In this document: piece after piece, positions 6,398 through 48,100 of the stretch | Position numbering within the stretch: the stretch's first letter is position 1 | How the letters are laid out: the number at the start of each line of letters is the position of its first letter | Origin: Clytia hemisphaerica | Taxonomy: Eukaryota > Cnidaria > Hydrozoa > Leptothecata > Clytiidae | DNA length: 64,000 bases | Direction of reading: 5' to 3' | Assembly: GCA_902728285.1 (NCBI GenBank) | Contig: CACVBU010000956.1 | Span: forward strand, 1,400,642-1,464,641 | The notes under the pieces: generated by a model | Database searches by the model: none | The model's input: only the letters and a program-made list of their open reading frames with translations | Told to the model about the DNA's origin: nothing | Made by a program: the position numbers and the translations under genes

Positions 6398-9300
6398 ATG
6401 AAAATGTTGATGCAAAAGTTTATTTTGCTGACACTGCATTACTTGGTTATCACAGAATGTCAGAAACCTGTTAAATCAAAAGGAACAGTGCAGCCTCTGG
6501 TGAGTTCACATTAATTGAAATTGACTCAAAAAATGTTTGAACACTATTAAGTCTATAATGACTTCACGACTTTATTTATAATGACTAGGGAAATGGCCTT
6601 TAAAGTCGGCTGGTTCAAAGATAGACTTTATACTAAACTAACTTGACTGGGAACTCAAACAGAAACCTCAAAAAAGTCTTTACACGGTAAAGGTAAGGTA
6701 GGTAGGTAAACTATATTTTTATGAATTATCTGCGCAAAATACCTACCACAGGACTTTCTGCTAATTTGAACATTTTCAAACATTTCCCAACAAAAACTCA
6801 TAGCAAAACTCCTCTCATAACTTCTACGTCGAAATTATAACGACGTACCAAGAATGTGTTACAGTGGTGCTGGTCGACCAAGAATGTGTTACAGTGGTGC
6901 TGGTCGACCAAGAATGTGTTACAGCGGTGCTGGTCGACCAAGAATGTGTTACAGTGTGTGGTCGACCAAGATGTGTTACAGTGTGCTGGTCGACCAAGAA
7001 TGTGTTACAGCGGTGCTGGTCGACCAAGAATGTGTTACAGCGGTGCTGGTCGACCAAGAATGTGTTACAGCGGTGCTAGTCGAGTTTTCATTTCCTTATA
7101 AGGAGTTTGACTAAAAGAAACGCTCTCCATCAGTAATTTTGAACCTCTCATTAAATCCGTCACTGGTATTTTCTCGACAGGTCTATTTGTTCAAGTATGG
7201 GTATGTGTCTACCAACGATTTCACAGAAAATCTACCATTGAAGTCAAATACCATCACAAGTTTCCAAAAGTTTGCAGGCCTCCCCTTGACAGGTAAGAGT
7301 ATAGTGGGCCATTCCATTTTATATGGATGCATACGGAGGGCGGGTGTACGAATAATTCCAGGGGTAACCCGGGAAGAATTTTCTTGGGGTCCAAAGGAAT
7401 TTTTTTCGTCTTTCTAGGAGTTGAAAACTTGCTCCAGACTGATTTTAGTTCGTCCACCCTCAGTTAAAAGGTTTTTCTTCACATTTCACGTGAAACGTGA
7501 AAAGATTCGTCCATCTCCCTGTATGGAAATTTAATGGAACAGGCCATTTGAAAAACTATCAGGCAAGCTTGTCTCAAAAGTGAGCAATTTGTTTTCAAAC
7601 ATCTTCTTATCGTACTTATGCTAGATTAAAAAATTATGCATCGTTTGAAAGTTACTTTCAAGGAAAATTGCTTAATTTGACGATGAAGATCATTTTTCCT
7701 ACTGGTTTAAAAATAGGGAGTTGGCCGCACTATTTAGAATACTTAGCCTTCTCATAGGTATTTTGGATGGCAGAACATTTCAACAGATGCGCCAACCAAG
7801 ATGTGGTATGATCGATGAAGTTGAACAACAAAATGAAAACAAGATAAAAACAAGTCAAAGAACCACATCATGGCTCTCACTGTTTGACAAGAGAGAGGAG
7901 GTCCGTCCAAATTCCATACAGTAAAATACGTCAGAAAAATAACCGTAACTTTAGCTTCTAGCTTGCAATAATTTTACAGTGAGAGGCTAAAATTTGGGTT
8001 GTATGTTGTATGTTGAAGAGTATTTGCGGACCGGACTTCCGATTATTGCGAAAAAGTTACTCTTACAGAGACACAGTCCGGGAAATAGTGACCCAAGATT
8101 AATTAAAAAAATTTCATCACCTTAGAGAGACGTTTTTGTCTTTTCATGGTTAACACAAAGAGGGGAAATTCCGACCCTTAGAAAGATTACTGAGACCTTT
8201 TGTTCCTACCATTTGAGAGATTTGCGGAGGTAAAAAACCGAACTTTACCGTCCGCACATACTCAACACCTATTTTTGTCTTAGTTACCCTCCCCTTGCCC
8301 GTTAAAGAGTGAGGATTAGTTATGAGGATCTTCCCTTCCATAAAATCTCTTTACTATAGGTTCTAAGTATACAAGGCTCAGAATTATAATTTCCTATTTG
8401 AGATATGTTTGGTAGAAACGTAAGAGGTGAAAGAGAGTACAGAATTAATATTGTGTAATAATAGTTTTTATCTTTTTCACGTAATAGAAATTGCTAACAT
8501 GGTCAGTCAAGAATGGAGGTCAACAGATAACAAAAGCAAAGGTTGTTCACATCATCACGAAAGCATTCAAACTTTGGTCTTCTGCGTGCGATATTCGTTT
8601 TAAACAAGTGCGAAACAATCCTGATATTGAAATCAGCTTTCAGAGTCGAGGACATGGCGACGGAAATTATTTTGATGGGAGAGGAGGTAAATATTCGGGG
8701 ATTTCAGGGATGTTGGAAAAACGAATTTCACCAGTTGGAAACTTGCTTTAGAGACTACTTCAGAATTGATTATTTAATCTCGATTGGAAAACTAACATAA
8801 CCTCCCATCCCGATATTAAAAGTATGAAGACCCCCTATGGATATATATTTCAGACGTAGACAACAGAATTTGAAATTTCCGAAAGGGAAGTTTAATATAC
8901 TGAAAAATATCAAATATTGAGATCAATTTGACCGAACTGAGGGAAGAAGGTTGAAATTGTAATGGGAGGGGCGAGCATGATTCCTTCTAGAAAACGATTT
9001 GAACTACTCTGAGAGACAGGCAAACATCCCCCCCCGTGACACAATCTTTCAATGGCTACTAAAAATTACTACTTAATTTTACTTATTTATTACAAACCCC
9101 TGAAATATTATCCCATAAAGAAACAGGTATCAAATCTTTCTTCAGGAATTCTTGCGCATGCGTTTTACCCACAATCAGGAAAACAAGGTAGTGAAACACT
9201 GGTTGGAGATATTCACTTTGATAATGCTGAACAATTTGAAGCTCAAAGTAAAGAGGGACGAAACTATTTTGTATGGCTTGCTACTCATGAAATTGGTAAG

Positions 9301-15595: not shown

Positions 15596-18500
15596 TTACG
15601 GTCGGTACGGCGATGCAACCGATGACGCGGTTGATTGAATGGACGTCGTTGATAGTCGCTGAAATATAAGGGAAGAACAAATTTTCTTTAAAATCATAGT
15701 TTAAGTTCAGTTGATATCTTGTCATACCGTAAATCCCCAAAGAGAATAAAAGAGCTGAAATTCATTAGAAAGGTTTAGTGCTGTTTTGTGTCAGGTATCA
15801 ACGAGTGACTATTCGTTCATAACACATCAGTTATAACCCTTCGAGCATCTTCAATTTTTTTTTACTAGGGGAAGCATCTTGGTGGGGTGGGGGGTGCGAG
15901 GCCCACTTAGAATCTCGAGATTAAAATTGTTTGGTTACTAAATCTTTGGTTACATATAAATCCTTTTTTGTTTCAATAAATATTTATTTTTTGTTCATCT
16001 TTATGTCGTTCTTGTTTCAGTTTTCGAAATGGCTTTCGTGGAAAGATTCTTCAGCTGCTTACAAAATTTGAAGTACTTTGAAGCACGTCACTTAAAACAG
16101 ATGTTATTATTATATTTCTATCATTACATACCCTGACACTGGATCCTCGTACGTTATTCAACTCCATAGAGCAATGTTCACACACACGCACTGGTTTCTT
16201 GCTGGACGCCAATACTGCTGACCATGCTGAACAGTCTTTGCAGAAAATACATCTGTAATTAAATAGGGAATGGCTTTTTAAAACAAAAATTATCTAGAGA
16301 CGTAACTACGAATTTGGTTTGAGGAGAATAAGCAAAAAATCTAGATTTTCTTCTGAGAAAAGTTTTCCCAGGACAAACGACAAGTGACAAGCTCTGGTTT
16401 AGATGGCCCACTTTTTGCCCTACCTATTCAAATTCTGAATTAAAGTTGGCAGAAAGTTGACTATCTGAAGTCAATGATCGATGATTGACCTCTTCTGACG
16501 TTAATGCAATAACTTCTTTCAAGAAAAGATTTTAGTTGGTTAGCTGCCAAATTTCTACCCACTTTTGCCTACTCTAATAATTATAATAGGCAGGGCAGAA
16601 AGACGACTAAATTATGACTAAGTTGAATGTAGTTCTTCAAATTGAAGATGACGTAACCTTTATTCAAACTTACCCGCAGTTTCTGCAATGGTGCTAAAAA
16701 GAAAAGAAAGCGTATCTTTCAGGTTTTTAACCGTAATTTAAAGGGGTCAATATGTTGTTTACTCATAACTGTGAGCTGAATTCTTTTAGTCTACACAATA
16801 GACAGATCCAGGCTTTTAGGCCTTACTCTTGGTCTATAGGCACTGCTATAGGCGGCCACTAGTGACCCCCACCGGGAATTGCGTATTAATAGGTTTAAAC
16901 AAAATAGACAACATTCACAAAAGATGTTTATCAATAGAGATTTTAAATGAAAGAATGTTTAAAACACAGCTGATTGGCTTAGGTTTCGAAACTCTCTATT
17001 GTTTCATTAAAACCTCAGTGCGCATGCGATTTATCTGGAGAATTTCAATATTCAAAACAAGAGCAGTGCTCATAGCCCAAAGAGTAGGAGTTTTACGCTC
17101 GAAACGAAGGAAGATATGACGTAGCCTAAATTCTTTTAACTTCCCCATGTATAATTTTATTGCTAGAAGATTTTTAAGCCTTTTCTTTTTTATCATTGTT
17201 AATGGAATGGCCCATCAAAAGTTTTTTTTTTCTGAAAAAATTTGAAACTATTTTGTTGGGCTAACTCACCTTTCTAACAGAAAAAGAGAAAGATTTGTCA
17301 CATTTTTTACAGTTTGATATATCTGCATCATTTTCCCATTGTCGTGTCGATTTCATTTGTTGCTGTACCTGAAGTCAAAACAAACAAGCAACATGCTGAA
17401 TAGACCTACCTAATGATTAACATCAGATGAAAATAAGGAAAAAGTGACAATAATTGTACAAAAATTCAGAATGGAAAAATAAAGCTTGTGTGTTGAATAA
17501 TGTAAAATGGTAAAAAGGAATTTCCCCAAATACGAAAATCACTAAAACCATTCAGGCCCAAAAAACCTTTTAAGCTGTTTTTGGCCCAAATTTGCCCAAA
17601 ATAATTTTCCTTAAAAATCTGGCTCCGTCACATTTTGGGCAATGCCATTTTGCATCATTGTGCAAAAAATCAGAAAAATATTAGGAGTCAACATTGAGAA
17701 AAGCTATATTTTCTTATTTGGTTAAAGGGGATTTCCCCAAAATACGAAAATCCGTCTTTTAAGGCGAATAAGAATTTCCCGGGAGAAACCACTTCAGTCA
17801 TTCTTTAGAAAATCTTGCCTTCCATCTTCGTATAAAAAATCAGAAAAAAGTAATAACAGGATTTTGCACAAAGTCCAAAAAACCGTATTTCAGGCACTTT
17901 TTGGGCCAAATTTGCCCAAATATATTTTTTTTTGAAAATCTGGCTTCGTCACATTTTAGGCATTGCCATTTTGCATCATTGTGCAAAAAACCAGAAAAAA
18001 ATAATGAGTCAACTTTGAGAAAAGCTATATTTTCTTATTTGGTTAAAGGGAATTTCCCCAAAATACGAAAATCCGTTTTTTAAGGCGAAAAAGAATTTTT
18101 CGGGAAAAACCACTTCAGTCATTCTTTAGAGAATCTTGTCCTCCATCTTTGTACAAGAAATCAGAAAAAAGTAATGACAGGATTTTGCACAAAGTCCAAA
18201 AAAACCCTATTTTTAGGTAGTTTTTGGCCCAAATTTGCCCAAATAAATTTTTTCTCAAAAATCGGGCTCCGTCACGTTCTGGGCATTGCCATTTTGCATC
18301 ATTGTGCATAAAATCAGAAAAAGTTAATGAGCCAATCCTGAGAAAAGCTGGTAACAGACGGACGAACGAACGAACGAACGGACATGGGTTAATTTATAGA
18401 ACCTCCACCGGGGCACCCGGAGGTAGGTCCAAAAATGATGAATAGATTTAGATATTAACTCTTTTCAAGGGATTTCAGAGCACGGAAAGGTCATCATTTC

Positions 18501-21500: not shown

Positions 21501-24500
21501 CAAATTTACTAGGATAACTAACGAACATTTTGCCATAGATGGAAAGATAAGGGTAGTAGACTTATTATTATCACCTGTTGTATGCTTTCATTGTTGAGTT
21601 CAACTTCTGCTTTCAAGTCGAGTACTTCATTCTCCAGTTCACTTCTAAAAAAACAATTTTCTGCTTTCAAGTCGAGTACTTCATTCTCCAGTCACTCATT
21701 CTCCAGTTCACTTCTAAAAAAACAATTTTCTGCTTTCAAGTCGAGTACTTCATTCTCCAGTTCACTTCTAAAAAAACAATTTTCTGCTTTCAAGTCGAGT
21801 ACTTCATTCTCCAGTTCACTTCTAAGAAGACAATTTTATGAAAGTAGAAGTAGGAAATGTTTGTTCGATGCTCGTTCAAGCTAGACAATACATTAATTAA
21901 AAACAAAATAAACTCACTTTTCTGTCTTTAATGTTTGCTTTTTCTCCGTTTCTTCGCTTAGCAACAACTTTGTTTGATTCTGAAGATCAAAGACCATTAT
22001 TACACATGAGACTAGTAAGATTATCCATTTGAGAACGACCTTTTTCAATGAAAACGAAGAGTGGTGAAGAAACATTTTACAGTAAAGTCAAACTTGATGA
22101 CAATTCAAAGCAGCACATTTTACCTGCACTATCGAAATGTTGTTAGAGAAATGTTCGACAATTTTCAGTAGGTGTGAAATTCAACACATTTTACAATTGA
22201 AATTATATTTTGTTTTAAGGGAATCAATTACATTTGATTGCACGTTTAATGAGAGAAGATATGCGATTGTTATTATTTACTAACCCCCAAACGATTCTGG
22301 CACGTTTTTTATAAGAACATCTAAAATTTTCGAAGCCTTCGGATATTCTTAACTTTTTGAGTTATAAGCCTGAAAATATTCTTAGTATGTTCTTATTCTC
22401 ACCATATTGTGACTATTTAGGTCCACTCCATTTACTAAGAAATTGGGTGTTTTAGAGTCAATAAAGCCTTAAAATGTTCTAAGCTTGTTCTTATAATTTT
22501 GGCCATTGAAGCCTTATATAGTTTGGAAAAATGCAGACACCAAATAAATGAATGGAGCTTTCTTCAATAGATCATCAATCCGTGTACATATCCCAAAATC
22601 AAGAAAAGGTTAAATAATCAAGAAACTATTCTTTTCAAAGACTCGTACCCAAGCCTTGCGCTTAGGCGATGGAGGACAGTCGTAATCTTCAGGCTAACGT
22701 CCTTTTTCGTTTTACCGACATAGGCCGGAAACCTGGCGACGAAAACCCGTTTGCTGAATGCAATCTTACTGATTTTTGTATAAAAGACAATGGCTTTAGT
22801 AACGGCTTTAGTCACCAGAGCCAGATCGTCTGGCTACGACAACCATTGTTTATGAGGATACTAAATCAACTCTATACCTTTTCATCGTTGGAGACGTTGA
22901 TTTGTTGCTTGAGGTTCTCGATTTCACTCTTCAGACTTTCGATCTCTTCTAAATGGTGAACAATATCCTACAATGAATAAATACTATATTTAAGAGATTG
23001 AATTTTCAATGGCATTGTTTTGGTTGTAGAGGTTTTTAGGTTTTGGCAAAATTATGTAACATGTAATAAGAGAAAATCTTGGAATCTTTTGGAAGCCAAC
23101 ATTCGAATTTGTAGAGGCGACTTTTTACGCAAATCGAACGCTTCCCACCATAAAAGTTAACATCCATCGAAATTGGGTAATCAAGTCAAATCTGAATGTG
23201 GCTTGGAATAAAAAACATCAAACTGAATGATACGGTATTTTTCTTACAGAAAAATTGGAAAAAAAGGAAAGTGACCATATAAAACTTACGAAACTCGGTC
23301 CTAAATAACCTCGATGATATACTTTTGACAGGTAGGAATTCATCGAAACTCATAATAATTTCCAGCTGTGAAATCCTTTATATATAATAAGACTTTTAAT
23401 AACAATTTCCCCCACCTATATGAGAGTAATCTCTTTAGCTCAATTAATTACGGATCTCATTAAATGTTTTTTTGTGCATTTCATTTGCTATAAATTATTT
23501 CTTGATTTCCCACGGGCAAATTTGGATAGATAAATTTCAATATAATTATAATTTGAGTCAATTAATGTATATACAAAATCAATATATTGGTGATGATGGT
23601 ATTACGCCTCAAGTCGATTGTCTCAGCATCCCATCACGTCAACTAGATCAGACGCTTTTGCAACGCTCTTCGAAAAAATGGCTGAAAACCAATAAAAACA
23701 TCAAAAACATCAAAATTCATGAAAATAACATCAAAATGGATAAAGATCAGCCTTTCGAAGCAGCCTCACCACCTCAAGCTTGCACGCCGTCAAGATGTAC
23801 TGAAGACGAAGACCTGGATTGCTTAACATGCAAAAAATGTAAAAGATCAGTTCATTATGAGTGCACACAGTTACCCCTGTATCAACTACAAATATTTGTG
23901 ACATCCTACAACGACCATTACTTATGTTCAAACTGCGTACGAATAACGAAAAACCTAAGAAATAAAGTGGGAAAAAACACTCAACATATGATGCAAAATG
24001 AACTTAAAAAGAAAGACGACGTCATACAAAAACTGAACAACGAGGTCAACACCAACACCAAAACCCGTGATTCCATTAAAAATGACCTCAAAACCTTTCT
24101 GGCAGGAAAACTGCAAGAGATGGAGGAGAAGACAAGAAGCATGATTAAAGAGGAAATAAAGCACACATCAGAAATAATAACGGAAACATCAAAGAAAACA
24201 TACGCTGAGATTACCAAGAAGCACAAAGAAGACTTAAAATCTGCCGAAGAACAAAAACGGAAGGAAGAAAGTGAAAAGAGAGACATAGAATCTAGAAAAC
24301 TAAATATGATCGTTCACGGGTTTCTCGAATCAGGCCCAGATAAGGAAGAAGAAGAAAATGGGAAAAAATATGACATATTTCGGTTCCGAGAACTCCTAGA
24401 TGACATCAATGTTCCAAAAATCAATGTTACTCACCACAGATTAGGAGACAGAAAAACAAAGAATGGCCGTCCTCTGAAAGTCACCCTGCAAAGTCAACAT

Positions 24501-27500
24501 GACAAAGATCTTATCATGAAGAATTTACACATGCTAAAAGAAACTTGTTTCTTTCAGGTAAGTATAACAGAAGATTTCACAATCAACGAACGGAAAAAGA
24601 TCAAGGAGATGCACGAACAAGCGAAGAAACTTAACAAAGACAATAACAATAAAGGATTCAACTGGTGCGTAAGAGGAAGCCCAAGAACAAAACTACGCTT
24701 CGTTAAAAAATTACAAAACCGAACAAAAATATCTTCAAATTATAAACAAAAACGCTCTACAGAAGAAATCGTCAGCGATTGGGCATTAACAGATGATGAT
24801 GAATGATTCATTTTGTAAAATAGGCAGTCGAACTCTATTAGCTTTAAAGCTAGTACAGATTTGTACACATTTTTCGACTTTAAAGAATATATACATTAAA
24901 CACACATACATCAACTTTCGCCATTAAAAGTCATCCTTTATCACCAAGCAACTTGTTTAGAGGCAGGTCTGCAAATTTTGAAGCCATTTCTTTCTAATTA
25001 AAGCAGAAAATCTTTGCAGAGGCTCGGCTGTTCTTAAATTCAGGTGTTTTTTAAGCTTTATATCAAATTTTCACTTCTTTGACCCTTTGTTTCTCTTAAA
25101 ATTCAGCATTGTCTTGTTTCGTGAGTGTTCTTATAAAAAAGCGTGTATCCACACCTTGGCTAAAAGCAATACGTGTGAAGTTGTATGTGTAAGAGAATTC
25201 TGTTTCTAAGTCATCTGCGAGTGTCATCTTTTCTGTGAGTTTCTAATGTTGCTGTGAAAATGTTCTATCAATTCCAAAGGTTGATTGACGACAACAAAAC
25301 AACAAAACACTTTTTCAACATGCGCACACTCCCTTTTTGGGTTCATAATGAGCGTATAGAGAGGAGCGCCAAAAACAAAAAATCTTTAAAAAGGGCGCCA
25401 TATTTGCCTTGGCCACCCCAGCGAAATTTTCCCACCACGCCACTGGCTGTTGCTATTCGTTTACGATTACGATTACGTTAGTTAGTTACGATTTTGATAA
25501 ATCGTCAAACAAATCGTTAGGTTATCCATAACTGAGTTTCCTCTTTACGTGATCGATTACTTTAATTAACTTAACAGACGTATAGTAAAGGACATCTTTT
25601 TTACGACCTAGCCATTTTAGGTCTATTCCAAAGTATATCTATTCAAGTATATTAAAAGATATTTTTGAGAGGAAGGACGCCGATTAGGCCCGGGAAAACC
25701 TTTTATGACCATAATAGTGACGTGATAATAGCTGATTTTCAAAATTCGAAATAAACGAAAAAGATTTGCTCAGAATTTCATGCATTTTTAGATGATTCTA
25801 AAAGAGCATGAAATTCTGAGCAAAAAAATGTATTACATCAACTCTCTGACTCCAACACAAAAAGAAATACAGCCTCTTGAAGTTCAACAAGTGATACTTT
25901 TATGGACCTACCTGGTTATGCATTTAACACATATATAATTGATATCTACGTGAGCATGAACGTTAAACAATCATTCAGAACATAGTGACGATTTAATAAA
26001 ATTAGTCGTTTGTTTCTTATAAAAAAACGTTTAGAAACCAAAATTTCATGCTCTTGAAATATTCTTTCATATTCAAGACTTCGTGAGCATAAAAAGACAT
26101 CTATCTGATCAAAAAATTGAGTAATTTGGCTAAGAACATTGATGTATGCTTATTAATAGTGATTCTTATAGATAAAGATGCGTTTTTTGAGCTGAAAAGT
26201 TTTTTTACAAAAATCTGCTTGACCCATCTTTTACCTACTTTCATGCAAAAAATCAGAAAAAACAACGATCCAATATTTCACAAAGTCCAAAAAACCCTTT
26301 TTTTAGCCGTTTTTTAGCTTTTCGAAAATCGGGCTCAGTCACATTCGACGGTTTATAGTTATGCATCTTTGTGCATAAAATCATAAAGAATGAAAGAGCC
26401 AATCTCGAGAAAAGCTAATACCTAAGTAATTGATAATGTGTTTATAAAAAAATATCGAATTTGGCCAGTTTTTCTATAAAAACACGCCAAGTAACCAAAA
26501 TTTCATGTCTAAACACACATATACTTCAAAAGTAAGCCCTCGTGAGCAAAAAAAAACATCTACAGTTGACCCTCTCTATTCGATCTTGAAGGGGAATTGG
26601 ATTATCATCGAATAAGGGAGCTTATCGAATAAGGGAGCGTCGTTTATGAGGGTTTCTTGTTGACAGGGACTTTAAATTTCATCGAATAAGGGAGCCTATC
26701 GAATAGTAGAATGTCGAATTAGAGAGCGTGAACTGTATCTCATAAAAAAATTGAGTAATTTGACTAAGAACATTAATGTATGCTTATTAATAGTGATTCT
26801 TATAGATAAACATGCTTTTTTGAGCCAACAAATTTTTTTGCAAAAATCTGCTTGAGCCATCTTTTACCTATGATGGTACCCTACTTCCATGCAAAAAATC
26901 TGAAAAAATCAATGATCCAATTTTTCACAAAGTCCAAAAAGCCCGCTTTTTAGCCGTTTTTTGGCTGAAATTTGCCCAAAAACATTTTTTTTTTCGAAAA
27001 TTGGGCTCCGTCACATTCGAGGGTTTATAGTTATGCATCTTTGTGCAAAAAGTCTTAAAGAAGGAAAGAGACAGTCTCGAGAAAAGCTAATAACTAAGTA
27101 ATTGATAATGTGCTTATAAAAAGATATCGAATTTGGCCAGTTTTTCTATAAAAACACGCCAAGCAACCAAAATTTCATGTCTAAACACACATATTCTTCA
27201 AAAGTAAGCCTTCATGAGCAAAAAAAAACTTCTCTCTCATAAAGAAATTGAGTAATTTGACAAAGAACATTGATGTATGCTTATTAATAGTGATTCTTAT
27301 AGATAAACATGCGTTTTTTAAGGCAAATAAATTTTTTTGAAAAAATCTGCTTGAGCCATCTTTTACCTATGATGGTACCCTACTTTCATGCAAAAAATCA
27401 AAAAAAATTGAATGATTCAATTTTTCACAAAGTCCCGTTTTTTAGCCGTTTTTTGGCCCAAATTTGTCCAAAATGTCGAAAAATCTGGCTCCGTCACATT

Positions 27501-30500
27501 TTGGCCACCACCGTTTTGCACCTTTGTACCAAAAATCAATTGATTCCTATGATTCAATCTCGAGAAAAGCTGGTAACGAACGGACGGACGGACGAACGGA
27601 CAGAGGTGAATTTATAGGACCTCCACCCCACCGGGGTAGGTCCAAAAACATATCGACGCCAGTACGATCAAAGAAGTACGATCGAGACAAGATTTGACGT
27701 CAAATCACAGTAGAGCTGACAGTTAGTTGGTCTTAAAGCGGTTGTATTTCTTTGTGCGTTTTAGTCAGAGAGTTGTTGTAATAGATTTTTTTGCTGAGAA
27801 TTTCATGCTCTTTCAGATGGTACCAATAATTTTCGTTTATTTTGACTTAAGAAAATCAGCAGTTTTGCTATTAGCGTCACTATTATGGTCATAAAAGTTT
27901 TCCCGGGCCTAATCCACGCCCTCCCTCTCAAAATATCTTTTAACATACTGTTCTTTGGAATGGACTAAAAATGGCTAGGTCGTAAAAAAGATGTCATAGG
28001 ACCCCAGGCTTGGCCCCTTACTAATATGTATCATACTTTATGCTTATGATGCTGATGAAGTCACGAAAGATGACGAAAATTTCTATTTAAGCAGTCGCTT
28101 CATTTTTTTATGTTTTCTATTATACTTTAAATATACTAAACAAATTGAGATCTCCTGAGATCATTTTCTAATGGATACTATTTGAGTAGAGATGAGAAAT
28201 AAATATATCTCTTTCACAAATTTTTTACTAGTATGATTAATTGCAATAGAGAAAACATTTTGATAATTTATTTAGGAACATGTTTTAGTTAATTCTCAGC
28301 TGTGCGAAACAAGCTACATGCTGAATGGACCTACCTGAATATTGATTAAAATATCGATGGAAAAAAATTCTCAATCCCATGAGATGGAGGCCAAACTCGA
28401 CTTGCTACAATCAAAGTCACGATGTTTGAAGAAGGGGATTCCCATAAAAACTTGGAAAACCCAATGATTTTCAAGTGCTCTAGCGTCCGAAGAGGTCCCC
28501 GGGATCCAAAGCTCAAAAAAGTTCCAAGTGAGATAAACTGTTTATATACAAAAGACCAAAAGTGAAGTCATATCTTAGAAGACAGTGGAAACAATTTCAA
28601 CTAATTTTACTTGGGAGCAACGAGGCTGAAAATCAATATAAGAATAATTGATGTACAAACAATATTATTTTATATTTTAATTTTATATTAACCTTGGACG
28701 GTCTAAATTCAAAGAGAGTAAGGGTCAAAGAATTAAAATTGTATGTATTTAGTTAATAACTTTATATTTTCACCTCGTTGGCAAAACTATTGTAAGGAGG
28801 TGTATACCCTTTGGTCACTACCTAACACTAAAGCAAAAGTTTAGTCGGTTGAATTGTGGAAATAAGAATTTATTTACAATTCCTTAATTAAAAAAGCCCC
28901 TGAGATAGAAACCGAGTTTCTTGATCAGCTGCCAACAACAACAACACAGTGTGAATCAGAAAAGAAAGGAAAATAAAGGAAGGAAGGGAGGAAAGTGAAA
29001 TTAAAATTGCGAGTTAACTTTTATGAAAAAATTCAATTCATATTCATCGATCGCCATCAATCATATTTCAGATCAGGTTGACTTGATATTTGAAAATGGC
29101 TGGAAATCATGTTTGTGTCACTATATATCGACCCGACCTTACTGGAAAGAATGACACAAAACTATTTTACAAACTTTCAGTCAACAGTGATTTCAGTGTG
29201 TGGGATTGCATATTTACGATTGCATGTTTTGTAGTGCTTTTCTGTAACGTTTTTCTTGCCGTTTCTCTCAAGAAAGTCTACAAGAAAAGACTAACGCTAT
29301 CCCAGAAACTCTACATTTATTTATCGATCACAGATATCACTGTTGGATGTTTGTTTCCTTGCTGTTTGGGTATAATAAGATTTTACCCAGAACTGATTTG
29401 TTTCGCTTGGAGTTTATTTGCCGCGCTTATCGTTTACTTGTTTGGGCTTGGATGGGGCACATTTCTGATTATCTCCCTAATGCGATTCATGGCGATACGT
29501 AAGCCATTGGAAAACTCGTTAACGGGTAGCAACGTAAAAATAATACTTTTCAGCTGGAATTTATACATGGTTTTGAAAAGCCTAATGACGTTTTTCGTCA
29601 ACACACAGTCTTACAATTCATATTATCTCGCCACTGCTTATTGGAGCTTCAGTAGTTCTTCGAAGATTCTCGAGATTATTTTGCTCGTTGGTTTAAACTG
29701 CTCGTCAGCTTATTATCTCCGTGATAAACCCCAAAGGGAAACAACTGAAATCCAAAATCCTCAAGTTCAAGCACGCAATCGAAATGCTGTTTCAACTCTG
29801 CTATGGATTTCGATCATTTACATAATAACAATACTTCCTCCATCCATAGTCAATATCATCATGGTTGTCGTCAAAGATAATTTCGAACTTTTAGATAAAG
29901 TCAAGGAATATTTTTTTCGGCTTCAAGTATTCGTTTACATGAGCACTACAGCAAATTCGTTGATTTACATTTATAAAGATGCAAAGTTAAGGAAGTATGC
30001 TAAAAAACATTTCTGCTGTTAATGGAGAATGTAGATAATGTTTTCAGTTTCTATTACATCAAATCTTTGAAATTATGTTTTGTTACATTTTCAAGACTTT
30101 TGATACCACGGCTGCAACTCTTCGAAGGGCCCAGTCCCAGCAGCTGTGAAAACTCGTTCAAAGGAAAATCTCCAGATTGTCATCAAAGGATCAAGTGTGA
30201 ACGGTTTCATCGAATTTCAACGATTTTTGAAGACCCAAGACTGTTCATGAGTAATTGGGACACAGAAATAAACTATGACAATCGACAAATTGTCGAAAAT
30301 TAACCCTATCTAGACAGGGATGTGTCTTGATCATCCACGTCAACTCAATCCCTTTCAAACACCTTGCAGCTTGATAGATACATTGTGAACGCCTTGTCAG
30401 TTTTACCGGTAAAATAAGTCGATAAAGAAAACAAAGCAACTGTTTTACTTTCATATCCACTGACCTTTATAAACCCTGGACAAAGCTTTTTCTGCCATCT

Positions 30501-33500
30501 TTGTTCGGAATTTATTGGTACCCGCAAAGAAGCCGCTGCGTGTTAAAAGTTAACGTCAAACGTCGCAACATCGTCACAAGTATTTTTCAAAAAAATATCA
30601 AAATATTTTGCTTGGCCGGGATTGAGTCTGCCTTCAGGGTATATAAAGGTCAATTTTTAGACCTAGTCGCGTTTAATGTGATGTATATAAAATATATAAT
30701 TGAACAAACCTCCTTAAACTTGTTTAGCTGGCCATTTAACTCGTTTGCTTTGGCTTCATGATTATGAGTTAATTTTTCGAATTCTTTGCATTTTGATTCG
30801 TGTTCTGTTGTCTTTTCCTGAAGAAGAATTTGTATTGATATGCACCACTGCAACGACTTCAGGAAATATTAGAGTTTACTACTTTTTCTCCCCTATACCT
30901 CACTTGCAACCAATCAGCTATTCTCATAAGTGACGTAATGAGAGAAGATATTGTACGTAAAAGTATCCTGAAAAAATTAGTTTTTTAGCAGTGAGCCACG
31001 TTAATAACGTCTTATTCAAAAACTATTTCAGGGCAGAAACTTTATAAAGAATTCAGAGAAAAATAACTGAAATTTTTCGAAGTAAAAACTCTTCTTGACA
31101 AGGCGGCATTCTTGCCACTCCTGTTACTCTCAACTGGGGTCATTTGACAAGTTCTACTTACTTTTAAGTTTGTCTCAACCTCTTCAAGTTTAGTGTTTAA
31201 TCTCTCGATTTGTCCACTTTGGTCCTGCAACAAAACCATGGGAAGGTGCACATAATAATAGTTTACACAAAGTAATAGTGAAATTTCAAAGTGTCATAAT
31301 GAATGAAGAAAGCCAAAATATTCCACTGTTCTTTTATAAGTAGCTCACAATTGAGACAAGCAGCAACTGAGAGAAAAAGATTCTTACCCTTGTGGCCTCT
31401 TGCAAGCGGCAAAGTTGAATCTCGTAGTTTTTGCAGCTTTCGCAAGGCTTTTTCAATTCTTTTTGTGCAACCTACAATAAACAGAAAAAGTTGGTCACTT
31501 AAATTTGATGAATGTGAAACAAATGGGAAAATTAGTTGACACTAGTTAAAGGGTTACGTCAGTGCTATCACGATGACTATGTTATTCATAAGTTTTATAA
31601 AAGAAACCTCCAGCTCTTCTTGCACAGATCGTAACACATCATCTTTTTGCTCCAAACTGCTTTCGATGCGCGCATATTTTTGTTCCAGCTCCATCATCTA
31701 TGAAATGAAAAGCTATGTAAAATGAAAAGCTAGCTATACCTTTGTAATTTTATTTAACTGTAACCGTTAGATTTAGTTCAGACTTATTTTTTGGAACTTC
31801 GAGACTCAATTCATCTTGTTCTTATTCTTTGTCGATTTCGAGCCTATGGTTCTTATGAAAAATAGTGTAATTATTGTATAGTTAAGTTGTTCTTGAGGAA
31901 CCTTTTCGCTTGAAAGCACCTCTAGGAATCAAACACCTTGAGCACCCATTATCAAAACAAATGGACCGAAAGAGAAACGAAGGAAATAATTAACCTACGT
32001 TTTTTTCTGCTTTATTACGCTTGACGATTTCAGACTCCAAATTTAGCTGAAAGAAAACATGACTTAGGTTAAATGGGTAACTCACAAAAGAAAGATAGAA
32101 TTTAGATAAATATGTCATTTTGAATTCCCTCTATGGGAGATTGCAGCGATTTGAGAGATGCATGTACATCTACTTCAAGCATGTCAAAAAATTATCAATC
32201 TTGCATGAATTAGGTCATAATTAATACCGCATCTACTAATAAATGCGCTCTTAAATGTCTCATTCGACATATTACCTAGAACAACATTGAACGACTTAAA
32301 TAAGATTGTTTAAAGATACCGGACAGTAACAATTTAGTACCTGTGTATTTTCAAGATTGATTTTTGTCTCATCAAGTTGGTTTTTGACTTCACTCAATTC
32401 GTTTTTCAAGCCATCCAGAGCTGATGTATGTGAAGCCTGAAGGTAAGCAACAGAAAGTAATAGATTGTCTATACAACAATGTCTAACCTGATCAGTAATA
32501 GGTGAGAATGACTCCTCCTCCTCCTACATATTTCCAAAAGCCATAATCGCTCAGTCTAATTCAAGTAATCAGTAATTCCAAATTAAGTAGTACGTTATGT
32601 CATGCTCATTTTTGATTGGATACCACCAGTCAAGATCTAAGAGCGCCCCGACCCATCTATTATTCGATAGCACTCTTAACATAGAGGCGGCTTTGCTAGA
32701 TATATTTTTTATCGCGCATAATTCTTGGAATGGCCCTTAAAGTGACAGTCAGTTGCAAAAATTTTTTCCAGACTTCTCCTGCCAGAAGTCTTTTCAATCT
32801 TGCGTGGGGTTTAAAAAATTACTTGAAGTTCATTCACAGTCTTTTCTTTATCTGCACGGAGTTCTTCTTCTTGTGCTTTGGATGTTGTTCTTAAATCTTC
32901 TACTTCTTTTGTTAATTCGTCCTGTGCGAAACAAAGAAACGTTTTATGAACAGGCTTTTCTTTTCATAGAAGGAGTAAAGAACACATGAACATTCATTGA
33001 AACATTGTTGAGAATGAAACACATGGAGACACAGAGGTGTATTTCAATTTGAAGACAGGGCGGTTACCTTAAGTATATTTGTATACCACAGTTTTTCACT
33101 TGCATTTGTAATTGTTTAAACTATTTTATTTATCTTACGCTTTCTACGCTCTGAAGAAAATCATTTTTTTATCAATTTAATGAAAACGCATAGGATCCTC
33201 CAGGGTTCAGGCACCCCCAAAAATTTAGGTACCCCTAATCATTTAGGTATCCCTAATCATTTTTGCACCCCAAAATATTTTAGAATTCTAAAGTAACCCC
33301 CCCCAACTCTCAAAATTGGAAAATTGGGTTAGTAAAGGATCAAATACTTCATACAAAAACGACAGTCCCCGCCCCCTAATGAAAATGCAGGTACCCCCAA
33401 ACATATCAGGTACCCCCTAAATTTAAGAATACTTCCAGGTACCTGGCTTTTTTAACACCTTTTTTAAGGTACCCACAATTTCTTGGGGGGGGGGTGGAGC

Positions 33501-39500: not shown

Positions 39501-42500
39501 AATGAACTATACCTGCAACAATTTGAAACTTTCTTCGAGAGCCATTCGCCTTTGTTTTTCTTCTACTGCATCATTCTTGTAAGCTTGCATCTCTTGTTGC
39601 TGAAGAGAAAAAGATCAAATTGGTAATAAATTGCCAGTAACTAATAGTTGGGATAAGCAAACACTCAAAAACTGTATCCAAAATAAAATAAAAACTTTAG
39701 ACTTCTATCATATCTAAACCTTGGAAGGGGTATTTTATTCCACGGAAGAACCTAATGAGATTTCTGCAGTTCAAAAATTAAAAATCATCTTATAATCTCT
39801 TTCTTAATAGATTTTTCAGTAAAAACTGTGACTTGAAACGAGCTTATCACATTTGGGTGGTGCATACGTAAAAAATGGTTTCGAAGTTTCATAAAGAGAA
39901 GGGTTCACAAAATATTTGTTTCAGAATAACCTTCCATTAAATATATATGTAAGTTCGTTAATAAGCTACTCTCGGGTACTTAATAGCCGTCCCCCCCCGC
40001 TAATTAATTTTTCGAAAATTTTCCACCCAGGACATTCTTATTCCAACCCCCCCGCTTATTAATTTTTGGGAAAGATTTTTAAAAGTTCCCTTTTTTGTCC
40101 TAATTCAGCTGTATTAGCCTCCTTTTCAAAAATTTTCCACCCAAGACATTTTTATTCCAACCCCCCCGCTTATTAAGTTTTGAGATTTTTTCCAACCTCC
40201 CCGCTTATTCCAACCCCCCCGGCTATTAGGTACCCGAGAGTAATTCCATTAGAAATTCACCATAATAGTTCCAATTTTACAGAGAACAGAATTATTTCTT
40301 CCTTCATGGTATCAATATTTTTTTACTTGATGATCAAAATAATTAACCAATGAACAGGTTGTCTATTATTTTCTTTAGCTTACTAGTTTTTCATGACGGT
40401 CTTTGGTGGTTTTGTAGTCAGCATATGTCAGTTCTTGTTTTAACTTCTCATTCTCTTGGGCCACTGAAAATGGAAATGACCAATAATGGTTGTTTAAAAA
40501 ATTACAATTAACAATCGCCTCTCTATAATTCGATCTTTAAGGGACAAAGACTTTTCTTTTTCAGTCAAGGGGACCTATGTTTTAGCTCGAATTACAAAAG
40601 TATTCGAATTATATAGAGGTTCGAATTATAAAAGTTCGAATTATAAAGAGCTGACGGTATGCACTCTAACAGCAGGCAGAAACAGCATGGTTTTCGCAGG
40701 TTAAAGTAGGAAATTGAGTTCATAATGTGTTTAGCAATCTAATATAATAAGCCGTTTGAGCACAAGAATATTGGGAATGTTCTGCAATCAAACCTTGAAG
40801 ATAACCAGCTTCAGCGGAACGTAATTGCGAACTAAATTCTTCCTCGACCATCTGTTTGTCCTGTGAAGAGGTAAAGTGATGACATTTTAGTGAGATGAGC
40901 ATTCCCCCAGATCTCTCCTCTTGTATGTGGTCTTTCTCTTTCATAGACCTTTTCATAAATTACATCACGAGCGACACTTACCTCATTTTCAAAATATTGC
41001 TATGGTAATTGACTCTCAGAGGAGTTCATAAGAAGTTCATTCTATCTGAAGAGTCAAGGGATTTAACCACCTTGGTAATGGTTTAAAACAAGGCAGTTAT
41101 TCCACTCAAAATAATTCATAAAAAGGCCTATTCTGTCCATTTCAAGCAAAATAGGTAGAGGTCTACACATGCCCAGGTTTTCCAACCTCTTCCAATTTAT
41201 CTCGTTCTTTTGAGACTTTGTCTAGCTCCAATTTGAGTTGACCAGAATACCATTTTTCTTCCTGAAATTCAAAAGTGAAAACAATTATTTTCAAAAACTA
41301 TTCAAGGCGTAGCTTGTATTAAACGATTTTCATAAATTATATTTATAATTATTGCATCAACCATTCTTGACTTCAGATAAAGTACTTTTTAAAAGGTAAA
41401 AGGTTGCAACACAATGGTGAATTGTTTTTTTCTTTTAATGAAAACCTTTAATTGGGAACTGATCTCGGACAATTCTTGTTGCAGAAGGACGACTTCTTTT
41501 TCAGTGTCCGGAGCATTGGAATCAAGAGTCATTTCCAATTGACTCTTGGAGAAATCATTGCTTGGGCTCATTGCAAGGTCTTCTTGAATCTGATCCGGCA
41601 AAGCATCAGTCTGTAAAAGATTAAGGAATCGTTATTTCCCAGTTTTTTAGTTGCTGCAAGTATGCTGGATTATAAATACACAAGAAGTTTTAGGTCATTC
41701 ATAAAAAAATTGGTTTCTCCTTGGTTATACGAAATTTCAACAATCTTTGAGCTAAATTTGATTTGGAATTGGTGTAAACAACCCGGGGTTCCCCTTCAAT
41801 CATACATTTGGGGATCAAAACAAACGTTTCTCAGAAGAAAAAACCTCTAAACCTCAAACTCTACTTTAACTGTCCAAAATAAAAACAGAACAAAAACCTG
41901 ATCTTCAGACGTGTCAATATCGATAAGTTTGCCCTCAGCATCGCTTCCACCTTCACTGTGCACTTTCTCGAAATGAACTTGTAATTCTGCTGGTCCTGGT
42001 AATGCTGCCATACACATTGGACAGATGAACCCAGCCTGAGAACCAGAAGAAGAAAGTTTAATAGATTTAGTTAAAGTGCCATTCCATTGTACTTTCATAC
42101 ATGAGGGTGCACGAACATTTTTTCATGGGGTCGTCAAAAAAGTAATTTTTGCATCGTTTTTATTCCAAGAGCTATAAGAAAATATTTAAAATTTCCAGGG
42201 ACCTTACTCAAATTTCCCGGGGACAAAATTTGTAATAGATAAAATATTGACTTTAGTTAATCCACCGTCGCTGTACAGTAAAAAGGAGAATTTTAAAACT
42301 AGACACTGGTGAGAGCAGATAAAGAAACTGAAGGTACTTGTGTATCAGGTTCATCTTCTTTCTGATCTTCAGTAGATGTATCTTTTGGTTGTTGTTGTTG
42401 CCCACCTCCTCCCCTACTCTGAAAAATAAGATATGTGATCAAATCAAGAGTTCAAAACAAATGGCCAGGCACATGTTTATAGCATAGAAGGTTCGGTATT

Positions 42501-45177: not shown

Positions 45178-48100
45178 TTAGCTGAAATCATCTTCACTCA
45201 AGCCAAACGTTTCATATTCAGCATTCATATTACGTTCACTTTCGTCCTCAGAGTTCTCTAAATATTCAGTGGAACCTGTATCGACATTCAAATGATTTGA
45301 TGGTGTTGGTTGAAGATTGGTCGAGTCTGGTTTTGGCGATGTTGGTTTGGGTGATAGCTCAGATTCCCAATCTTCATCTGCTTGATGAAGAGAATGAGGG
45401 TTTGACAATTGAATGCTGGGATTTGTCGCTCCAATCGATGACTGTTGGCTGCTGTTGGTATTGTTCTTAGATCTCGATGCAGTGTCAATCTCCATTGATG
45501 GCTGTGATGTCTTGTTAGTTTTTGGTGTAGTAATAGAGTCGGAGAAGTATGAGCTGCTTTGCGGTAGTATGGGTGGATTGTTGGGTCTGGATTGTTTTTG
45601 AGCGAGTTCGGCACTCTAGAAAACAAAATTTTAATACACTCTTTTTTTATAAGCATACTTAGGCTAAAATTCGGTAAAAAATAAGGATAATGCTAAGCAT
45701 ACTTTCAAGCTGGAATGCATAAAAATTCGTGCAGCTTTTCTAAAATGCTGACCTTTTAGGGTTACTTTTAAAGCTGTTTGAGCTTTCTTAGCCCAAACAT
45801 TTTTGCCTGCAGCACCAAGTTACAAAGAAAACTTGCATTTTTATGAGCTGAATCAAAGTTTCGACTTAAAATTCAAAATTTTCATGATCCCAAAGCAAAT
45901 CAACAAATCGAAGTCTAAGCATATAATTATGCATAAATTAAGAGTGAAAATGAGATTTCGATGAACATATTGAGCCTCGACCCGATTTTCTTGTATGCTT
46001 ATAAAAAAGAGAGTGTATTATAGAAGTGAAAATTCTAAGAAAAAGCTTCTATTTTCAATATTTCTCGTGCTATTTTCTAGAGGAAAAGTAGCTCCTTAGA
46101 AATTTTTGTGTTCAAATTGTTGATTCATTTATTAAAAGTATTTAAGGAACCTGTTGGAGTTGTTTTTCTTGAAAACGAAACAGTGTCGTTGATTTTCCAT
46201 TCTTTAGCTTGTCAACAACCATCTCAATGTATCTTTCAGCAATATCAGATCTGATTTCTCTGGTTGCTTTTTCAGAGCGAAACCAAGGGGTATCACTGGC
46301 CATAGCTGAGCTAATGATATTAACTTCGCATTGAGCAGATAGTGGTCCAGAACGTCTTTTAACTTTGGATATGACCTCCAAAACACCACCAGCAACCCAT
46401 GTTCCATCAGTTAGCTTGTGTTTGACGATCAAGAATTTTGGACCCTTCGTTTTAGCCCATTCTCTTTCGAATATAGCTGCGTCAGAATCAATAAAAAGGA
46501 AGTGTCCGTTTTGTGCAGTTTTCAACAAACTTGGAAAAAACTTTCCTTCTCTTTCTGATACAATGGTTGAAAAGAATCTCGCAGTTGGGTCTGAAAGTAA
46601 AGGATTAGATAAATTTCTCAATTCACGTGCTGTCCAGTCTGCTTTTGATTCTGTGGAAATAGTTTGATAGCTTGGTACTATGAAGCTTTTCGTTTTTTTG
46701 ACTTCCTCCATCGATTTGTTTAACATTTCTTTTGAAGCTGCATTCGAGTGACGTGAACCACCAAGACTATCTGTACTTTTACCTGGAGATATCATTTGTT
46801 TACGAAACTCCTCTGTTTCACGGTTGATTTCATCCAGAAATTCTGTACTACATAAATTACTTGGAGGTTGATTCTCTATAGTTGGTGGAGGAGGAGACAA
46901 GTTTGAAGTTAGAGAAGGCACAGTGACCTGTGGTTGTAGATTTGTCGGTAAGGGTGGTGATTTGGGTTGCATGGCTGGGAGAGGATGCAAGTTTGAAGTT
47001 AGAGGGGGCATTGTAGGGTGCGGTTGTAGATGTGTCGGTAAGGGTGGTGATTTGGGTTGCATGGCTGGGAGAGGAGGCAAGTTTGAAGTTAGAGGGGGCA
47101 TTGTAGGGTGCGGTTGTAGATTTGGCGGTAAAGCAGTTGGTTGTGTAATACCCATTTGCATCTGGCGTAGATTTTCAGCTTTAAATTGCTGCTCTAATTG
47201 CTGTTTCATAACATGCAAATTTTGTATTTGATTTTGATCAAGAAGTCCACTTGGCATTTGAAGGCATCTTTTGATTGCCTCCAGCTGTTGTATTTTCACA
47301 TTAAAATCATTCCCAGATAATACAGGATTCGAAACGTTCCCCATAACAGGTTGTTGGGGAATTCCTTGTTGGGGAACTCCTTGTTGGGGAACTCCTTGTT
47401 GGGGAATTCCTTGTTGGGGAATTCCTTGTTGGGGAATTCCTTGTTGGGGAATTCCTTGTTGGGGAATTCCTTGTTGGGGAATTCCTTGTTGGGGAATTCC
47501 TTGTTGGGGAATTCCTTGTTCGGGAATTCCTTGTTGGTTATTGAATTGCCCAGGTCTTGGAGATCTAGTGCCAAAAGGGTTAAAAGACTGAGGTGGAGTG
47601 AAGTTTGCTGGCTCGAGATTATTCATTGATGGTTGATGGCCTCGAGATGTAGAAGGTTGATGAAGAAAACTTGGTGGAAGAACTGGTCTACCACGAGATT
47701 CTGACTCTTGTTTGATTTGCTGCTGGATGTTAAAAATCTGTAACAACAGTCCTTGAATAGCCTGATCTCTTTCAGCTGGAGGAGATTTTTGCAAAATAAT
47801 GTCTTTTTGTTGAATCAAATCACTCAATTGTTGCTCGAGTTTAGAGATTTGTTCTGCATTCTGATGTGTTGGCGCATTTGTTGTTTCGGTTGATGGTTTA
47901 CCCAACAATGCATTTTTAAGTTGCCCTTCTCCCATGCTGTTATTAGGACTGTCAAAAGCATTATCATCCAAAGGCGATATTTGAAAATGCTCTTCTGCTC
48001 CTGGTGTTTTGCTCTCACCCCAGTCGACATCTGAGCTTGTTCTCTCAGGGATTTTGATGGGTGGCAAGGATGGGGCTTCTTTATTAGGGTTGGCCTGTTC

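Follow-up and report, generated by a model that had tools for sequence, protein, structure and literature searches.

Within a 64,000-nucleotide stretch of Clytia hemisphaerica DNA (hereafter the window), a long minus-strand gene contains one intron of exceptional size, which raises the question of what fills this intron and whether its content bears on the host gene. An earlier note on this DNA proposed that the intron holds two intronless genes, an ORF1-type gene and a class A G protein-coupled receptor (GPCR), nested in antisense orientation. We consider it very likely that mobile and repeated DNA has enlarged this EEA1 intron and that the intron holds a single genuine host gene, which encodes a divergent class A-like receptor in one exon on the opposite strand, together with an ORF1-only retroelement copy, an inverted-repeat/satellite element, and smaller repeats.

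The minus-strand host gene is very probably animal EEA1, as judged from the domains at its two ends. The exon at 41898..42035 (minus strand; sequence matches and gene model) encodes an N-terminal C2H2 zinc finger corresponding to the Rab5-binding finger of EEA1: it matched PDB entry 3mjh_B, "Early endosome antigen 1", at E 3.7e-4, and its Pfam match, zf-C2H2_4, was below the cut-off (E 0.021). The C-terminal region matched 1joc_A, "Early Endosomal Autoantigen 1" (E 2.7e-20), and Pfam FYVE (E 1.3e-19), and the FYVE domain is encoded by minus-strand exons at 16160..17368 (17368-17270, a micro-exon HHCRNCG from 16693, and an exon from ~16252). Between the zinc-finger and FYVE ends, the gene model places coiled-coil exons on the same strand, mostly in phase 0. 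The large intron (22968..30709, minus strand, 7742 nt) lies between an upstream exon of 108 nt (30710..30817, minus strand, phase 0) and a downstream exon of 90 nt (22878..22967, minus strand, phase 0), whose splice sites score positively. Direct reading showed that both exons are open, that they join phase 0 to phase 0, and that the intron ends are GT and AG. The earlier note had stated that the exons join in phase; its view of the host gene as intact also appears correct, with the zinc-finger and FYVE ends on either side of the intron. Exon 22967-22878 with its exact ends was not recovered unaided by a simple gene finder, the splice training set of which included the sites of this exon: the first pass skipped the exon, and the second entered it at 22948, having called two spurious exons in antisense to the receptor before it. 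Because the exons are in phase and the intron ends are intact, the EEA1 pre-mRNA would most likely be spliced across the whole 7742-nt stretch. The intron is indeed far larger than its neighbours: the median of the 41 introns in the model, spurious ones included, is 330 nt, and the next largest outside the 22968-30709 stretch is 1191 nt. The label "intron 26" depends on the gene model, and in the present one the intron follows exon 27.

The single-exon gene on the plus strand (29096..30022), recognized from its open reading frame, a family search, and a family profile, encodes a predicted class A-like GPCR of 308 amino acids, and an AATAAA at 30267..30272 (plus strand) is a possible poly(A) signal for it. 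The frame is 7TM-like, and its 308 stop-free codons have a probability of ~6e-11 at the local base composition, or ~1e-6 for an open run of this length over all starts in the intron. When the receptor copy was analysed alone, Pfam returned only a sub-threshold match to Srw (E 0.013) and none to 7tm_1, and a phmmer search of the PDB gave no match at E<=1. A hydropathy scan revealed eight partly overlapping hydrophobic windows, with none in the expected TM7 stretch and no clear seventh helix, and an AlphaFold model made without an alignment (pLDDT 47) was too poor for reading helices. In place of the canonical DRY and NPxxY motifs, the protein has M-R-F and N-S-L-I-Y.

The family gave a clearer assignment than the single copy. 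At least 50 matches at E<=1e-3, the receptor itself included, were found in the genome (129 scored of 163 candidates); the best-scoring relative is 37% identical, and 44 of the 50 matches are free of internal stops. From 30 receptor loci (L001-L030, one of which is the window itself), we aligned 19 paralogs with the window copy, leaving out L008, L010, L014, and L021 for their stops and L022 and L026-L030 as weak or partial. This alignment and its Pfam scan, the genome searches, the PDB search, and the structure model were all based on a receptor sequence beginning at 29105, which lacks the first three residues; the true ATG is at 29096. Seven residues are invariant in the 20 aligned members (R127, P134, N198, L205, P245, N284, and Y288, in a numbering that begins at residue 4 of the complete protein). 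At a threshold of E<=0.01, the profile of the alignment retrieved 485 PDB sequences, with a lowest E of 6.7e-17; the 60 listed are class A receptors by name. Of the 20 members, 16 matched Pfam 7tm_1 at E<=0.1. By this profile, the family is predicted to be class A (rhodopsin-like), and the receptor is, as far as sequence comparison tells, a divergent and isolated member of it. The class A label of the earlier note therefore holds for the family but not for the copy taken alone. Single-frame class A frames are abundant in this genome, with at least 157 PF00001 matches (from 1259 candidates, of which 147 were scored). Invertebrates have large families of intronless class A receptors, which the family described here resembles in its many single-exon paralogs, some of them in tandem. 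It differs from them at the DRY position, where the receptor has M-R-F and most of the family has L-R-N, with A-I-R-K-P next, and at the NPxxY position, where the family has N-S/A-L-x-Y. Intronless opsins are treated in PMC10512536. We see the receptor as a dispersed member of this large intronless family, and it probably functions independently of the EEA1 gene that hosts it.

The other supposed gene is of a different kind. It lies in a copy of an ORF1-only, non-LTR-type retroelement (23636..24899, plus strand) that is ~11 nt short at its 5' end relative to most of the copies that we fetched. Its ORF1 (23736..24806, plus strand, with the ATG at 23736 and the stop ending at 24806) encodes 356 amino acids with a PHD-like finger, a coiled-coil-rich middle, and an RRM/CTD-like C-terminus, the last two recognized by eye. 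The finger matched Pfam below the cut-off (E 0.0012), and PDB matches were weak, the best being a ribosomal protein (E 0.015), with PHD fingers at E 0.63 and worse. A search of the genome with the ORF1 protein gave at least 116 matches (114 scored of 3236 candidates); a 3098-aa open frame at one of them, C743, proved to be an N gap. Among 19 fetched copies (L032-L050), the start falls at 23636 in 16, TTTTTATTTG stands just upstream of that position in 16, and the end falls exactly at 24899 in 14 and within 2 nt of it in two more; three copies run on 16-19 nt into the tail, a short repeat at the 3' end that varies between copies. All 19 encode ORF1p with no ORF2 within the unit, which is at most ~1.3 kb long. 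No target-site duplications were found for these 19 copies, the longest match between flanks being 8 nt and the rest 0 or 5-7 nt, at non-corresponding positions. Since the ORF1-type frame belongs to a mobile element that is present in many nearly identical copies with common ends, the proposal of two intronless genes is not supported; what stands of it is the receptor, an intronless gene lying antisense inside a single EEA1 intron. For annotation, the lesson is that an intact frame of 356 codons with PHD and ORF1-like parts can resemble a gene and yet be a mobile element.

Could the arrangement itself be an artefact, or could it be regulatory? An assembly misjoin would explain an intron so much larger than its neighbours, but we regard it as highly improbable: the EEA1 parts on both sides lie on one strand and in phase, the inserted retroelement has the same ends as other copies, and no N runs are seen in 22700-31000, where the earlier note had allowed for an assembly gap. 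As for regulation, the receptor is a complete gene within the intron of another, like the animal nested genes described in PMC8467205, and is of the same kind; in this case the nested gene encodes a single-exon receptor and has transposable elements as neighbours. Gene nesting is frequent in animals: nested structures hold 4.3-8.7% of the protein-coding genes in the seven vertebrates surveyed there. The idea of two host genes nested in antisense to EEA1, with read-through from EEA1 controlling the receptor or interfering with it, draws on the antisense placement of one gene inside the other, on a report from human transcripts and minigenes that intronic L1s and nested genes cause interference (PMC3192792), and on interference being cited as a driver of nested-gene expression divergence in Drosophila (PMC8467205). 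We think this improbable, as the ORF1 "gene" is a repeat and, for human and mouse, PMC8467205 reports that expression divergence is not in excess among nested genes. With the second supposed gene explained as one copy of a widespread mobile element, there is little out of the ordinary in the arrangement, although the element looks like a retroelement that has kept half of its usual genes; the nested receptor can be seen as ordinary gene nesting for which no special mechanism is needed.

The same question of host function can be asked of the ORF1 frame. It is intact and its substitutions are biased to synonymous ones, as in a domesticated (host-recruited) LINE ORF1 gene such as mammalian L1TD1 (PMC4161310), but the many copies at 95-97% identity with common element ends and variable 3' tails, the closest of those fetched (L034) being 98.9% identical to the window element over aligned bases, make domestication barely credible. 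A less remote alternative, though still an unlikely one, is that the copies derive from a full LINE with ORF1 and ORF2 and that selection acted on the full element rather than on an ORF1-only unit. PHD-bearing ORF1s are known in many CR1/L2-lineage LINEs (PMC4120745), and rare ORF2-bearing versions could have escaped the genome searches, in which scoring is limited to the top candidates. However, the 3' end lies ~93 nt past the ORF1 stop in the 19 fetched copies, and in a search with the 3' end, 40 of 40 scored matches (237 candidates) begin in the last ORF1 codon. L059, which is 90.5% identical and represents a second subfamily, is laid out in the same way, with no RT-like ORF detected by eye in the 4.5 kb downstream, and none was seen by eye in three neighbourhoods of 10 kb each (L051-L053).

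Coding variation points to selection on ORF1. Variants common to copies gave a pN/pS of 0.20 (32 N, 38 S), and dN/dS was 0.13-0.20 in nine comparisons against L059, one copy of the second subfamily; the copies were mostly chosen by protein score, which is a bias, with non-coding ends as the criterion for only 5 of 25. Gaps in the ORF1 frame occur in three of the five copies picked by DNA instead of protein score. The element appears to have multiplied while purifying selection acted on its ORF1, and to work like HAL1 (half-L1) of mammals, a non-autonomous retroelement encoding only ORF1p (PMC5753468), but with a different type of ORF1. HAL1 derives from L1, whereas the ORF1 of the window element has a PHD-like finger and no Transposase_22 among its Pfam hits, and the 3' tail is a short repeat rather than the poly(A) of HAL1. 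In its PHD finger, the element resembles CR1/L2-lineage LINEs, and in its short-repeat 3' end it resembles CR1, whose 3' end is usually a short repeat (PMC2612034, which names an octamer); unlike these LINEs, it has no ORF2 beside the copies examined. The retroelement probably spreads in half-LINE style: its own ORF1 protein would package the element RNA, and the reverse transcriptase would come from another element. We tentatively hypothesize, giving it somewhat less than an even chance, that the element is a stable half-LINE that evolved independently outside L1, that the RT-less lineage is old enough for two subfamilies (split at dS ~0.25), and that purifying selection maintains the PHD-finger ORF1 for its action in cis, which delivers the element RNA to a borrowed reverse transcriptase. 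If true, it would offer a second, non-L1 case for why an RT-less retroelement keeps an ORF1 protein, and a case in which a cis action of ORF1p could be tested.

At least 4409 of the 7742 nt of the intron (at least 57%) consist of repeated or duplicated DNA, a count from separate searches of the intron outside 22968-23635, 24900-25590, and 30023-30709. One duplicated segment (28306..29051) has one other copy that we found, C65, at 94-97% identity and without the receptor; a 74-nt difference between the two (28866-28939) was considered as a splicing product and rejected, as neither strand has GT..AG at its boundaries. A short dispersed repeat at 28049..28116 has dozens of matches among 40 scored candidates. 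We also observed a 2.4-kb composite element, absent from the earlier note, at 25591..27995, in which inverted-repeat arms (25591-25888 and 27726-27995, 75% identical over ~300 nt) surround a satellite-bearing repeat. This repeat carries a 173-nt insertion (26563..26735), the flanking parts of which abut in at least 20 other places.

The anatomy described in the earlier note is real and was half misread: the enlarged EEA1 intron contains one nested antisense receptor together with transposable elements. Separate tests addressed the host gene, each of the two supposed nested genes, and the greater part of the remaining intron, and genome searches covered the 417-Mb, 951-contig assembly. EEA1, with minus-strand exons from ~42.4 kb to ~16.1 kb, is a real host gene, as its N-terminal part matches PDB 3mjh_B (EEA1 zinc finger chain, E 3.7e-4) and its C-terminal part matches PDB 1joc_A (EEA1, E 2.7e-20) and Pfam FYVE (E 1.3e-19, micro-exon at 16693 included). 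The intron at 30709-22968 is oversized, measuring 7742 nt against a median of 330 nt for the 41 model introns and 1191 nt for the longest other intron beyond the disputed stretch. Coiled-coil exons, mostly phase-0, flank it on both sides in our home-made splice/codon model, which also put two spurious exons antisense to the receptor. The claim that flanking exons 30817-30710 and 22967-22878 join in phase held, with a caveat on the second exon. The ends of exon 22967-22878 were accepted because the exon reads open in phase 0 and both of its splice sites score positively (2.9 for the acceptor and 1.5 for the donor, these sites having been part of the training set), although the model did not recover the exon with these exact ends unaided.

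The claimed intronless antisense receptor was found within this intron as a plus strand ORF of 308 aa (29096-30022), and a stop-free run that long would occur by chance with a probability of ~6e-11. Searching the genome at the protein level returned 50 matches including the receptor itself, 44 of them without an internal stop, and the best-scoring relative was 37% identical (129 scored of 163 candidates); the DNA-level genome search returned nothing but the gene itself. Divergence is so high, even from the nearest relatives, that a copy free of constraint probably would have lost its frame, and the intact frame suggests that the receptor is probably under selection. Alignment of 20 members revealed R127, P134, N198, L205, P245, N284, and Y288 to be invariant. 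In the 20-member tree, the window receptor lies on a long branch, and it is solitary, while tandem groups hold several paralogs (for instance, three on contig C94). A diverged ORF1-like fragment, seen by eye on the minus strand of one fetched locus (L056 1663-1962), adjoins a tandem paralog group. The class A assignment holds for the family, whose profile hits class A structures with E-values down to 6.7e-17, whereas the window receptor alone matched neither Pfam 7tm_1 nor any PDB entry at E ≤ 1. The genome is rich in single-frame class A ORFs, with 157 matches (147 of 1259 candidates were scored), and in most of those listed one frame spans almost the entire domain; therefore, an intronless receptor is common here and is not itself a sign of recent retrocopying.

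As gene nesting, the arrangement is ordinary. In seven vertebrates, nested structures account for 4.3-8.7% of the protein-coding genes, and an effect on the expression divergence of nested genes is reported for Drosophila and none for mammals (PMC8467205). Human transcripts and minigenes have been reported to show interference caused by intronic L1s and by nested genes (PMC3192792).

The other claimed gene, the ORF at 23736-24806, is instead part of a mobile element copy (23636-24899), and this element is the part that deserves a specialist's look. By eye, the ORF is laid out like a LINE ORF1 protein, with coiled-coil and RRM/CTD parts; its PHD-like match fell below the cut-off (E 0.0012), and ORF1s of the L2 and CR1 lineage often carry PHD fingers (PMC4120745). 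Its protein has 116 genome matches, from 3236 candidates of which 114 were scored; the top match apart from itself is 97% identical, and 17 of the 19 other fetched copies lack an internal stop. At the DNA level, 16 of these 19 start at the position of 23636, and TTTTTATTTG stands directly upstream of that position in 16; the 5' end is shortened or altered in three (L036, L040, and L049) and, by ~11 nt, in the window copy. The 3' end falls exactly at 24899 in 14 copies, within 2 nt in two, and 16-19 nt beyond in three. All 19 end in a tail of short ATTAAC-like repeats of varying length (ATTAC and ATTTAC in L045 and L050), which is degenerate in the window copy. These ends and tails give the element the build of a non-LTR element.

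The 1.26-kb unit lacks ORF2, and no RT-like ORF was seen by eye in three 10-kb element neighborhoods or beside L059, a single copy from a second subfamily that is 90.5% identical. A search with the 3' end gave 237 candidates, and each of the 40 scored matches starts in the last ORF1 codon. In HAL1 elements, likewise, ORF1p is the sole encoded protein (PMC5753468), and no non-L1 half-LINE appeared among the titles and abstract openings listed by searches of open-licence papers. Between the subfamilies, window ORF1 and L059 differ by dS 0.275 and dN 0.035 (ratio 0.13), and the eight of 24 other ORF1 copies that were also compared with L059 gave 0.13-0.20. Across the 20 copies, that of the window included, pN/pS was 0.20 for variants common to several copies (32 nonsynonymous, 38 synonymous) and 0.45 for private variants (67 nonsynonymous plus one stop, 36 synonymous). 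Against the 24 copies, window ORF1 gave dN/dS values between 0.14 and 0.80; those for L034 and L065, the two top values, come from 13-14 differences. Protein score was the basis for ranking the 19 copies, a source of bias, and five others were chosen by their non-coding 3' end (dN/dS 0.20-0.72 against window ORF1). Only two of the five (L063 and L064) have a gap-free frame; L061, L062, and L065 contain gaps, L062 also has masked letters, and L065 also lacks the 5' part. The protein-ranked set therefore overstates intactness. An unseen full-length source of the ORF1-only copies is possible. In what was seen of both subfamilies, ORF2 is missing at the same junction, so the between-subfamily selection would most simply have acted on the ORF1-only unit itself.

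Repeated or duplicated DNA makes up at least 4409 of the 7742 intron nt, as judged from separate searches of the pieces within 23636-24899 and 25591-30022. A composite at 25591-27995 has inverted arms (~300 nt, 75%) around a satellite-bearing repeat; among 40 scored of 7896 candidates, the arms matched only each other, and the repeat had matches, mostly at 87-94%, in dozens of places elsewhere. In at least 20 of these places, parts 296-972 and 1146-2058 of the composite query lie directly side by side, and 26563-26735 is therefore a further insertion. Directly upstream of the receptor, segment 28306-29051 has one other copy (L060 618-1286), which lacks the receptor and is 94-97% identical, with a 74-nt indel between them. 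A short dispersed repeat lies at 28049-28116. In another EEA1 intron, tandem satellite units of period 321 (17558-18435) are relatives of the repeat at 26246-27648, which puts related repeats in at least two EEA1 introns. At 21627-21837, an exon-like segment of the EEA1 coiled coil is repeated in tandem as 54/69-nt copies, which may represent an exon duplication. Elsewhere in the window, a 30-nt tandem repeat (8 copies) lies at 6847-7083, and the long open frame of a neighboring gene (46145-48376, minus strand) contains an in-frame 15-nt tandem of ~12 copies at 47351-47537.
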